Shown one piece after another: positions 27,013 to 53,675 of a stretch of DNA of 64,000 nucleotides (its first letter is position 1; each line of letters starts with the position of its first letter). The stretch lies in contig NZ_AP022853.1 of NCBI RefSeq assembly GCF_011764585.1, positions 1,905,501-1,969,500 on the forward strand, read 5' to 3'. Below the pieces are notes generated by a model that had not been told where the DNA came from, ran no database searches, and worked only from the letters and a program-made list of their open reading frames with translations. Origin of the DNA: Sulfurimicrobium lacus (lineage in GTDB: Bacteria > Pseudomonadota > Gammaproteobacteria > Burkholderiales > Sulfuricellaceae). Made by a program: the position numbers and the translations under genes.

Positions 27013-29571
27013 ATGAAACAAGGCACGACGTTCACTCTCGAAGTCAATCCCAAGATCCCGCGCAAGCTGATTCGCCTGGAAGAGCTTGCCAACAACCTCT
27101 GGTACAGTTGGGACAAGCCGACCCGCACCCTGTTCGCGCGCCTGCATCCCGGGCTGTGGGATGCGGTGGCGCACAACCCGAAGGTTTTCCTGCGCCGCGT
27201 CGACGAAAAGCGCCTGCTGGACGCGGTCGAAGACCAGGTGTTCCTGGCTACCTACAACCGCGTTCTGTCGGCATTCGACACCTACCACCACGAGATGGTG
27301 CACCATAACGGTGAGGCACATCTCAAGGAAGTCGACCTGGTGGCTTATTTCTGCGCCGAATTCGGTTTTCACGAGAGCTTCCCCATCTATTCCGGCGGGC
27401 TGGGTATTCTTGCCGGCGACCACTGCAAGGCGGCCAGCGACATGTACGTGCCCTTCGTGGCGGTCGGCCTGCTGTACCGTCAGGGTTACTTCACCCAGAC
27501 CATAGACAACGACGGGAACCAGATCGCGACTCATACCGACTCGGACTTCGCCGATTTGCCGGTTGCGCCGGCGCTGCGCGACGACGGCAGCGAGGTGCAC
27601 ATCACCGTGGAACTGCCGGGAAGGCAGGTGACGGTAAAAGTCTGGCAGGCCATCGCGGGGCACGTGCGCCTGTACCTGCTCGATACCGACCTGGAAGTAA
27701 ATGCCCCCGAAGACCGCGATATTGCGCACCAGCTTTATGGCGGCGACCGGACCATGCGCTTGATGCAGGAAATCATTCTGGGTGTAGGCGGCGTAAGAGC
27801 GTTGCAGGAACTGGGCCTGAAGCCGTCGGTGTGGCACATCAACGAAGGCCATGCGGCTTTCCTCATTCTGGAACGGGTGCGCCAACTGGTAACCAGGCAG
27901 GGCCTGGATTTTGCCAGCGCGCTTGAAGCCGTGGCCGCCAATACCGTGTTTACCACCCATACCCCGGTGCCGGCGGGGCACGATCACTTTACCGAGAAGA
28001 TGATCACGGACTATTTCCAGAGTTTCTGCCTCGATTTGAAAATCAGCACGGCCGATCTCATGAATCTGGGCCTGACGCCGGAAAGCCCGGAATTCAACAT
28101 GACGGCGCTGGCGATTCGCGGTTCGCGCCACCAGAACGGGGTGAGCCGGATTCACGGCAAGGTTTCCTCGCATATCTGTTCGACGCTGTGGCCGGATGTG
28201 CTGCCGGAAGAGAACCCCATGTCGCATGTCACCAATGGTGTGCATGTGGCGACCTTCCTGGCACAGGAATGGGCCGACCTGTTCGATAACGTATTCGGTT
28301 ATGAGTGGCGCCACCGCCTGTCGGACCCGGGATTCTGGAGCCGCATCGACGAGATTCCGGATCAGCTGTTCTGGAGCGTGCGCCAGTCGCTCAAGGCGCA
28401 GATGCTGCAATTGGTCCGCTTCCGCAAGAGCGCCCAGCACTTCCGCCAGCACGGCAGCGAATCCCACCTGGACCGGGTACTGAAGCACGTCGACAGTTTC
28501 GACCCCAATGTGCTTACCATCGGTTTCGCGCGCCGTTTTGCCACTTACAAGCGCGCCGCGCTGTTGTTCGAGAACCTCACCTGGCTCAAGGAAATCATCT
28601 CCGATACCAATCGTCCGGTGGTCTTCCTCTTTGCCGGCAAGGCCCACCCGGCCGACCAGCCCGGACAGGACCTGATCCGCCAGATCACCAGCATTTCCCA
28701 CATGCCCGAGTTCGAGGGCAAGGTGTTGATGGTGGAAGGCTATGATCTCGGCCTGGCGCGGCGCTTGGTGTCGGGCGTGGATGTATGGCTCAATAACCCG
28801 GTTTACCCGCTGGAGGCGAGCGGCACATCCGGCATGAAGGCAGGCATGAACGGCGCCATCAATCTGTCCGTCCTGGATGGCTGGTGGGGCGAAGGTTACG
28901 ATGGTACCAACGGCTGGGCGATCAAACCTGCGCCGACCTACATGGAGGATTATCGCCGCAACAAGGAGGAGTCTCAGACCTTGTACGAAATACTCCAGGA
29001 CCGTGTGCTGCCCGCCTACTACGAGCGTGGCAAAATGGGCTATTCGCCCGACTGGGTGAAGATGTCCAAGCGTTCCATGGCCACTATCCTGCCGCGTTTC
29101 AATTCAGCCCGCATGGTGGGCGAATATGTCAGCAAATTCTATGTGCCCGCCAGCCATCAGGGGCGACGCTATGAGCAAGAAAATTTCGCCGGCGCGAAGC
29201 TTTTGTCTGCATGGAAAAATAGAATTCGCAGCGCTTGGCCGGACGTCTCCCTGCGCCTCTTGTACAACGCGTCCAAACGCATCCACTTCGGCGATGCGGT
29301 GAGATTCGACGTGGCACTCAAGATGAAGGGGCTGGAAGCGGACGATGTGCTGGTGGAATTGCTGCTGCGCCGGCCCAACAAGCAGGACATGTCGGATTAC
29401 CTGCACTTCACCTTCAGTTTCCAGAACATGAACGCGGAAACGGGCGAGCATTTCTTCTCGCTCGAATTGTCGCCCGATCTGTGCGGCAGACTGGATTACA
29501 AAATCCGCGCTTACCCGTCCCACGAACTGCTGACGCACCCGCTGGAAATGGGACTGATGCAATGGCTGTAA
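27013..29571 (+). CDS. glgP: Alpha-glucan (glycogen) phosphorylase, DUF3417 type
   Basis: The 852-residue GT35 enzyme has the N-terminal DUF3417 region (RLEELANNLWYSWDKPTR), the GGLGILAGDH motif, VWHINEGHAA, and the PLP-lysine region EASGTSGMKAGMNGA. It removes glucose-1-phosphate from glycogen or maltodextrin. This is the shorter, Thermotoga/Mycobacterium-like class rather than the E. coli GlgP/MalP class. AAGGA precedes the ATG. glgA lies downstream on the opposite strand, so synthesis and breakdown genes are convergent around the 261-bp inverted-repeat element. Confidence 0.93.
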   Translation: MKQGTTFTLEVNPKIPRKLIRLEELANNLWYSWDKPTRTLFARLHPGLWDAVAHNPKVFLRRVDEKRLLDAVEDQVFLATYNRVLSAFDTYHHEMVHHNGEAHLKEVDLVAYFCAEFGFHESFPIYSGGLGILAGDHCKAASDMYVPFVAVGLLYRQGYFTQTIDNDGNQIATHTDSDFADLPVAPALRDDGSEVHITVELPGRQVTVKVWQAIAGHVRLYLLDTDLEVNAPEDRDIAHQLYGGDRTMRLMQEIILGVGGVRALQELGLKPSVWHINEGHAAFLILERVRQLVTRQGLDFASALEAVAANTVFTTHTPVPAGHDHFTEKMITDYFQSFCLDLKISTADLMNLGLTPESPEFNMTALAIRGSRHQNGVSRIHGKVSSHICSTLWPDVLPEENPMSHVTNGVHVATFLAQEWADLFDNVFGYEWRHRLSDPGFWSRIDEIPDQLFWSVRQSLKAQMLQLVRFRKSAQHFRQHGSESHLDRVLKHVDSFDPNVLTIGFARRFATYKRAALLFENLTWLKEIISDTNRPVVFLFAGKAHPADQPGQDLIRQITSISHMPEFEGKVLMVEGYDLGLARRLVSGVDVWLNNPVYPLEASGTSGMKAGMNGAINLSVLDGWWGEGYDGTNGWAIKPAPTYMEDYRRNKEESQTLYEILQDRVLPAYYERGKMGYSPDWVKMSKRSMATILPRFNSARMVGEYVSKFYVPASHQGRRYEQENFAGAKLLSAWKNRIRSAWPDVSLRLLYNASKRIHFGDAVRFDVALKMKGLEADDVLVELLLRRPNKQDMSDYLHFTFSFQNMNAETGEHFFSLELSPDLCGRLDYKIRAYPSHELLTHPLEMGLMQWL

Positions 29572-29580
29572 TGCTGGGAG

Positions 29581-29841
29581 CCCCTGATCAAGTCAAACGC
29601 GGTCGCGACGTGGTTTTGCGGGTGCCATGCAAGAAGTGAGGTGCGCCGTGCAGTCACTCTGCACCAGCGCCTCGCGACGCCGCATGGCGCCCGCAAAACC
29701 ACGTCCCTCCGGGTTACATCGAAAACGGACTTGCGCCGCGTTGCGCTCCTCGGCGTCGTAGGCTCGGCTACGACCTTCGTCGCGCGCCTTGCTCAAGCCC
29801 GTTTTCGATGTAACGCGATCCGCGTTTGACTTGATCAGGGG
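29581..29841. repeat. Three-way-junction inverted-repeat element
   Basis: An outer perfect 22-bp inverted repeat (29581-29602 with 29820-29841) encloses two long hairpins. Arm 1 spans 29607-29705 with a 24-bp base stem at 23/24 identity, the one difference being a G-U pair in RNA; its tip is GTGCAG-TCACT-CTGCAC. Arm 2 spans 29713-29814 with a 21-bp base stem (20/21) and tip GTCGTAG-GCTCGG-CTACGAC. Junction spacers are 4, 7 and 5 nt. The element fills the gap between convergent glgP and hemerythrin genes. It has no credible ORF. It could be a non-autonomous mobile repeat, a bidirectional terminator or a structured RNA. Confidence 0.85.
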
Positions 29842-29845
29842 TTCC

Positions 29846-30262
29846 TTAGCTGAGCCCTTTGGAAGCCAGGTATTCTCCCAGGACTTTTTCCCCCTTGAGG
29901 AGGTGCAATTCCGCCCAATCGGTGACGAAGGCGAGAATCAGCTTCAATCTGTGGGGATCGGAGAAGAACAGCGTTTCATTGAACATGTCGAGTTTCTGAA
30001 GCAGTCCGAGATGCTCCCGGGCATGGCCTTCCAGGCCGGGAAAGCCATATTCGCTCATGAGACGCTCCTCGAAACCGAAGTGCTGACGGGCGAGGAGAAC
30101 GAGACCGTCCATCAATTCATGCATGACTTCGCTGCTGGCACCATCCTCAATGGCTGAAATTACTCGATTGACCTGTTCGACGATCTGCCGGTGTTGCTCG
30201 TCGAGAGAGGTAATGCCAATGCCATGCTGAGATTCGTTCCAGATCAGGCCAGCGTGCTTCAT
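29846..30262 (-). CDS. Bacteriohemerythrin
   Basis: The 138-residue four-helix-bundle protein has the diiron ligand pattern: DEQHRQIV (His24), ARQHFGFEERLM (His and Glu), HAREHLGLL (His) and a C-terminal ELHLLKGEKVL. At the last position the canonical Asp ligand (H-x4-D) is Glu, which may alter the diiron site. Hemerythrins bind oxygen for storage, sensing or delivery to oxidases. AGGAG precedes the ATG at 30262. The gene ends 4 bp from the inverted-repeat element and lies 17 bp after glgA, possibly on one transcript. Confidence 0.88.
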   Translation of the reverse strand: MKHAGLIWNESQHGIGITSLDEQHRQIVEQVNRVISAIEDGASSEVMHELMDGLVLLARQHFGFEERLMSEYGFPGLEGHAREHLGLLQKLDMFNETLFFSDPHRLKLILAFVTDWAELHLLKGEKVLGEYLASKGLS

Positions 30263-53585: not shown

Positions 53586-53660
53586 AAGTCAGCTATCAGC
53601 TGTCAGCCAGAACCCCGTGAGGGGGCTTGCTGATGGCTGACCACTGATAGCTGATAGCTT
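53586..53660. repeat. Heptamer-based inverted repeat between uvrC and pgsA
   Basis: The left arm (53586-53609) contains three 7-bp units of the form TNTCAGC; the right arm (53634-53660) is their imperfect complement (TGATAGC units). The loop carries CCCC-GTGA-GGGG. It could fold into a hairpin of about 24 bp, but lacks a T tract. Confidence 0.75.
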
Positions 53661-53675
53661 ACTTGTTAGGCCAAC

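Follow-up and report, generated by a model that had tools for sequence, protein, structure and literature searches.

A non-autonomous IS5-type element with a two-hairpin core at the glgP–hemerythrin junction of Sulfurimicrobium lacus, and probable relatives with other ends across Proteobacteria

The glgP–hemerythrin junction

The window analysed here is a 64,000-nucleotide stretch of the Sulfurimicrobium lacus genome (contig NZ_AP022853.1, positions 1,905,501 to 1,969,500), and coordinates refer to this window unless stated otherwise. A glgP-like alpha-glucan phosphorylase gene ends 5 bp before a 269-bp element, which is adjoined directly on its other side by the stop codon of a hemerythrin-domain protein gene (Table 1); the TTA of the TTAG at 29846 is this stop codon (TAA) on the minus strand. 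The element is assigned to the minus strand, the reading direction that puts its conserved hairpin 2 ahead of hairpin 1. Elsewhere in the window, at 53586-53664, short inverted repeats form a cluster of their own (TCAGCTATCAGCTGTCAGCC).

Table 1 Features of the glgP–hemerythrin junction in window coordinates
Feature	Coordinates	Strand	Remarks
Alpha-glucan phosphorylase gene (glgP-like), 852 aa	27013..29571	+	TIGR02094, 829 bits
Whole element, 269 bp	29577..29845	-	Ends set by alignment of 14 copies
Left outer arm (TIR)	29577..29606	.	Terminal bases GGAGCCCCTGATCAAGTC
Hairpin 1, 99 nt	29607..29705	-	Inverted paralogue of hairpin 2
Linker, 7 nt	29706..29712	.	CC-TCC-GG (CCTCCGG); predicted mini-hairpin
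Hairpin 2, 102 nt	29713..29814	-	Apical part with conserved GCAAGGCGCG...GCAACGC internal-loop motif
Right outer arm (TIR)	29815..29845	.	
TTAG, remaining YTAR target sequence	29846..29849	.	
Hemerythrin-domain protein gene	29846..30235	-	TIGR02481, 75 bits, above cut-off

A first-pass annotation of this stretch had described a 261-bp element made of nested inverted repeats that fold as a three-way junction. All three repeats are present where it placed them, including a perfect 22-bp outer repeat (29581-29602 and 29820-29841), but the extent required correction: in full, the outer repeat spans 26 bp (96% identity), which puts the true ends at 29577 and 29845, four bases further out on each side. 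An outer stem of ~30 bp closes the two hairpins, whose base stems are 24 bp at 96% (hairpin 1) and 27 bp at 89% (hairpin 2), and the three-way junction is confirmed, becoming four-way if the 2-bp linker stem (29706-29712) is counted. The RNA fold of 29561-29861 reaches -200.9 kcal/mol compared with -114.2 (s.d. 5.2) in dinucleotide shuffles (z = -16.6; matched by 0/100 shuffles). The element is, as had been proposed, no normal terminator: a T-run is absent after either end, the hairpins of 99-102 nt sit in a closed junction, and an intrinsic terminator, with its short GC-rich hairpin and U-run, was rejected as a description. Rfam scans covering 20 loci (4,227 families, gathering score) gave no match inside any element; the sole match at E ≤ 1, mir-431 at E = 0.033, lies far under the cut-off and is attributed to chance.

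Copies, target sites and IS5-family partners

Far from being a single copy without homologues, the element has 14 near-full, dispersed copies of 85-100% identity in this single-contig genome of 3.83 Mb and, with 269 bp, no coding capacity and outer arms of 26-30 bp, it has the make-up of a MITE. Arm sequences change pairwise among these copies, with GACGTGGTTTTGC/GCAAAACCACGTC in some and GACGGGGTATTGC/GCAATACCCCGTC in others. In a genome of the same genus (G006), glgP and the hemerythrin gene are adjacent, separated by a spacer of ~37 bp that lacks the element, and the site is therefore unoccupied there. In three near-full copies (L008, L013 and, less clearly, L014), the tip of hairpin 2 holds an extra hairpin of ~57 bp, or there is a comparable insertion; in L013, hairpin 1 also runs in the opposite orientation to that of the other copies, which it matches at 97% on the other strand. 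The genome further contains ~52-bp copies with nothing but the two outer arms, at contig positions 161034, 1797674 and 2152587 (L020, L019 and L100). Two of these have intact CTAA/CTAA flanks, and they represent either minimal mobile forms or products of hairpin deletion.

The copies occupy varied genomic contexts. In S. lacus, eight have tandem genes on either side, five divergent and three convergent ones, as judged with a crude codon-usage gene caller in which two or three assignments come from overlapping or partial calls, and 20 copies in a relative from the same order (G056) are similarly spread (tandem 8, convergent 4, divergent 3, overlapping a called ORF 5). A role specific to convergent genes is not supported, nor, as a function particular to this site, is the role once suggested for this copy, protection of the 3' ends of glgP and hemerythrin mRNAs. 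Copies are often found 0-10 bp from a stop codon, which would also be explained by a YTAR target, as this naturally includes TAA and TAG stops.

The terminal bases of the S. lacus copies have the consensus GGAACC[T/C]CTGAT[T/C]AAGTC. Of 40 copies in G056, 24 have YTAR directly beyond their left end and 22 beyond their right end, compared with 0.6 expected. Identical flanking 4-mers occur in 7/40 of these copies against 3.1 by shuffle (P = 0.02), and exact 4-bp flank identity is found in 1/11 copies in S. lacus; as exact 4-mers are just modestly above shuffles, the duplication length may be either TA or YTAR. YTAR flanks are strongly enriched among copies; the window copy keeps no intact target-site duplication, the left counterpart of its TTAG (29573-29576) reading GCTG. 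Together, the ends and the YTAR flanks identify an IS5-type non-autonomous element. We note that the 2.2-Mb genome of G056 (loci L059-L098) has ~64 IS5-type ends on each strand, and that no DDE_Tnp_1 transposase was found in its assembly; the complete 4.1-Mb genome of another member of the order (G112) has ~43 matches to IS5-type DDE transposases.

Resident partner ISs are found in four genera, where the ends of the element match those of an IS5-family IS and differ among genera. Two transposase subgroups (NCBIfam) are represented, IS5_4 and IS5_3. In a second genome of the S. lacus genus (G005), a 1,170-bp IS encodes a 318-aa transposase of the IS5_4 subgroup (323.7 bits; cut-off 140), and its ends are identical over 17 bp at both ends to those of the element in the same genome (GGAACCCCTGAACAAGT). 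The IS5_3 partners are an 822-bp IS with a 253-aa transposase in G587 (shared ends GGYTCTGTTGACGTTT), an 861-bp IS in Sulfuricella sp. T08 (G008; AGAAGCTGTYTTAA) and an 856-bp IS in G482 whose ends match those of the element in G589, a genome of the same genus (GGGCSTGTTGCCGTTTC); their transposases score 271.9, 148 and 111.5 bits (cut-off 110). Matching ends, target type and transposases above the NCBIfam IS5 cut-offs thus place the element with the IS5 group. An autonomous partner was not found in the S. lacus genome itself, where 437- and 577-aa DDE_Tnp_1 transposases were considered and rejected, their ends being unrelated or unrecognisable. Because no such transposase is present there, the family may be stranded in this genome. 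The first-pass proposal of a non-autonomous mobile repeat accordingly gains from the near-full copies, their IS5-like ends and YTAR flanks, the unoccupied orthologous junction and the same-genus transposase gene bounded by the same end repeats.

A probable common core under unrelated ends

A bacterial MITE is commonly taken to be the shrunken copy of a single IS. An internal deletion of a single IS5-type IS, unrelated to any look-alikes, would give the IS5-type ends, the YTAR flanks and a same-genus IS with the same ends. However, similarity between elements and partner ISs in BLAST comparisons is confined to the terminal 13-18 nt (for Sulfuricella sp. T08, a 13/14 match from direct comparison rather than BLAST), and homologous cores lie under the ends of other IS5 subgroups. 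The elements of G587 and G589, whose ends are unrelated, are collinear over 31-228 and 33-230, respectively, an alignment that leaves out just ~30 nt of outer sequence on one side and ~43 nt on the other; those of Sulfuricella sp. T08 and G589 align over 30-142 and 33-143, so that the interior is homologous and the outer stem excluded. Since sharing with the ISs stops at 13-18 terminal nucleotides and the cores align under unrelated ends, the elements are not deletion products of their partner ISs, and we regard the single-IS origin as largely refuted and very improbable.

The core is spread widely. The tip of hairpin 2, used as a query, matched 72 exact stretches in named genomes, many in Nitrosospira and Nitrosovibrio and others in Sulfuricella, Gallionella and unclassified beta- and gammaproteobacterial MAGs. 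These matches, with the earlier loci, yielded 67 two-hairpin elements of common geometry with ends of several types. A covariance model (R1) built from hairpin 2 alone has matches in 27/369 genomes of the class (E ≤ 1e-6) and 18/399 genomes of the phylum (E ≤ 1e-7), of which eight belong to other classes. The architecture was then verified on the part of each element that lies outside the model, and hence independently of it: in 17 of 26 genomes other than S. lacus, the best locus lies in an element of 253-303 bp (mostly 265-282 bp) with a long outer inverted repeat and the model hairpin ~30 nt from one end. Elements L290, L291 and L293, from a second class, have the same architecture. Weak matches at L226, L227, L228 and L292, some at E ~ 1e-7, were judged spurious. 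Besides the second class, the architecture occurs in scattered Gammaproteobacteria (in the GTDB sense), among them the genera Nitrosospira, Sulfuricella, Pseudomonas, Azotobacter and Halomonas. The outer repeats that surround it have at least 17 different sequences. Copies of 267-269 bp are carried by named plasmids of Pseudomonas aeruginosa, Azotobacter chroococcum and Halomonas. Searches of plasmids with the window element and of phages with the P. aeruginosa copy gave no match, and no second record across the junction turned up when an empty site was sought for the P. aeruginosa plasmid copy. Three shorter elements of 162-201 bp (L224, L231 and L234) have IS5-type ends and apparently one hairpin of the same family, and are possibly a monomeric ancestor or a deletion form.

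The fold persists as stem sequences turn over. Across relatives, the outer stem encloses two hairpins, no more and no fewer, in the folds of 82/86 elements, with medians of 276.5 bp in total, 103 and 101 nt for the hairpins and 7 nt for the linker; a CC-NNN-GG mini-hairpin is present in 76/82. Among 17 end classes, outer arms score on average 23.9 (of 28) within elements compared with 5.8 between, hairpin 2 stem arms 17.2 compared with 6.6, and hairpin 1 stem arms 17.0 compared with 5.9, these within-element counts partly using each element's own predicted fold. Stem sequences are therefore replaced among classes with pairing retained, and the apical motif (GCAAGGCGCG...GCAACGC) is kept. Pairing was scored per element, RNAalifold on a plain MAFFT alignment having misaligned the variable stems (21 pairs), and with a gapped within/between arm test, the ungapped version being weak from register shifts. 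Hairpin 1, read in reverse, matches hairpin 2 with a score of 12.0 (same-strand control 7.9), so the hairpins are inverted paralogues and the element is nearly symmetric. In G056, elements range from 253 to 787 bp, with extra hairpins nested at recurrent positions (105/107, 147-150 and 220-228 of the 275-bp form); those of 330-787 bp indicate that the frame can grow as well as shrink.

Readings of the conserved fold and known systems

Conservation of the fold is compatible with either selection or correction of one arm by the other. If intrastrand template switching corrected arm to arm, pairing would be kept by mutation and the fold would be a by-product, a reading that accommodates the near-perfect joint change of both arms in all stems, end repeats included, and that would also help the end repeats to drift pairwise. 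It leaves unexplained the near-constant total and hairpin lengths, the linker and the conserved, imperfectly paired tips, and we consider it unlikely.

The fold may alternatively serve the host as a structured RNA, with read-through from either neighbouring gene giving a stable 3' structure that acts as terminator or mRNA protector and mobility being incidental. Extreme stability, abutting stop codons and an inverted hairpin pair that would give either transcript one 'forward' hairpin are in keeping with such a role. So is a mirror-image wobble in stem mismatches, with G.T exceeding A.C in hairpin 2 (28:13) and the reverse bias in hairpin 1 (13:37), although the sequences are related rather than independent and the P values are inflated by this kinship. 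Over the whole element the biases cancel (108:103), and 67 elements have no overall strand preference in fold energy (30/67, P = 0.10), which hints against one fixed-strand RNA and fits a motif available on either strand. With convergent bias absent among copies, occurrence patchy among genomes of the class and stop-codon abutment also explained by the YTAR target, a host-beneficial RNA seems to us improbable.

Copy number, ends, flanks, the unoccupied junction and partner ISs, all established at the level of sequence, lead us to conclude that the window element is very probably a non-autonomous IS5-family MITE moved in trans, with a conserved two-hairpin core under IS5 ends that differ among lineages. 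An IS5-family transposase would recognize the terminal ~15-18 bp and mobilize the element in trans, inserting it at YTAR-like sites, often at stop codons; in S. lacus this transposase would no longer be recognizable. The body would be a conserved core of ~210 nt, made of two inverted-paralogous hairpins rather than an internal deletion of the partner IS, that was joined to one or another set of IS5-family end repeats depending on the proteobacterial lineage and changed partners repeatedly. The sequences directly show homologous cores beneath unrelated ends, and stems that pair although they differ in sequence; that all elements stem from one core with exchanged ends, and that conservation concerns the fold as such, are our inferences, with common descent across end classes suggested by short motifs and conserved geometry, not by long identity.

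We hold a broader proposal more tentatively, with somewhat less than even confidence: the two-hairpin core may be an ancient, SINE-like parasite across Proteobacteria that swaps ends to suit the resident IS5-family transposase, its conserved fold, near-constant length and GCAAGGCGC...GCAACGC loop forming a motif, available on either strand, that probably binds a host or transposition factor. As the likeliest, though tentative, reason for the conserved fold of the window element and its relatives, each hairpin would present one and the same folded motif, and their inverted arrangement would offer it from either strand or side of transcription, which might perhaps suit transposition or host tolerance in any insertion orientation. 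A shape-keeping, phylum-wide core that exchanges both ends would be a bacterial counterpart of the partner-changing non-autonomous elements of eukaryotes, would raise the testable question of how a two-hairpin fold benefits transposition or the host, and would provide a model by which many intergenic repeats now without a label, in Nitrosospira, Pseudomonas, Azotobacter, Halomonas and others, could be annotated. Partial coverage of the literature on MITEs of Nitrosospira, on three-way-junction and cloverleaf MITEs and on Sulfuricella repeats found no description of the element, and we provisionally regard a phylum-wide core with exchangeable ends as novel.

Several known repeats share parts of this organization. 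MITEPsy1 of Pseudomonas syringae (100 bp, tentatively IS5; PMC3189936) and Correia/NEMIS of Neisseria (~105-155 bp; PMC2229807) are likewise short and gene-less, with long TIRs, a TA- or YTAR-type target, presumed mobilization in trans and stable secondary structure. Unlike the present element with its many ends, each is tied to one TIR type, and their descriptions include neither a cross-genus core under unrelated TIRs nor near-constant geometry. The CIR repeats known from Caulobacter and Brucella (PMC2229807) also have two hairpin arms and a linker conserved across genera; however, they lack TIRs and pairing between 5' and 3' ends, whereas the arms of the present element are closed by a 30-bp outer stem with IS5 ends. 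REP dimers or REPINs and GTAG/CGTC repeats (PMC3733652, PMC2817692) similarly pair hairpin units in opposite orientation, and some REP dimers are reported within longer palindromes (PMC3733652). The inverted hairpin pairs and the GTAG in some tips recall REP/BIME-type elements, which a RAYT tyrosine transposase moves, but REP units are 20-40 bp and RAYT-associated, compared with units of ~100 nt bounded here by long IS5 TIRs with YTAR flanks and IS5 DDE partners, and the GTAG lies inside the tip and is missing from most classes, making this origin highly implausible. R0 and R2 of Pseudomonas fluorescens (PMC2718517) are intergenic repeats bounded by inverted repeats that also flank resident ISs, and are proposed to be MITEs; they are 89-110 bp long, have one structure each and show a tail-to-tail bias, which is not seen for the element described here.
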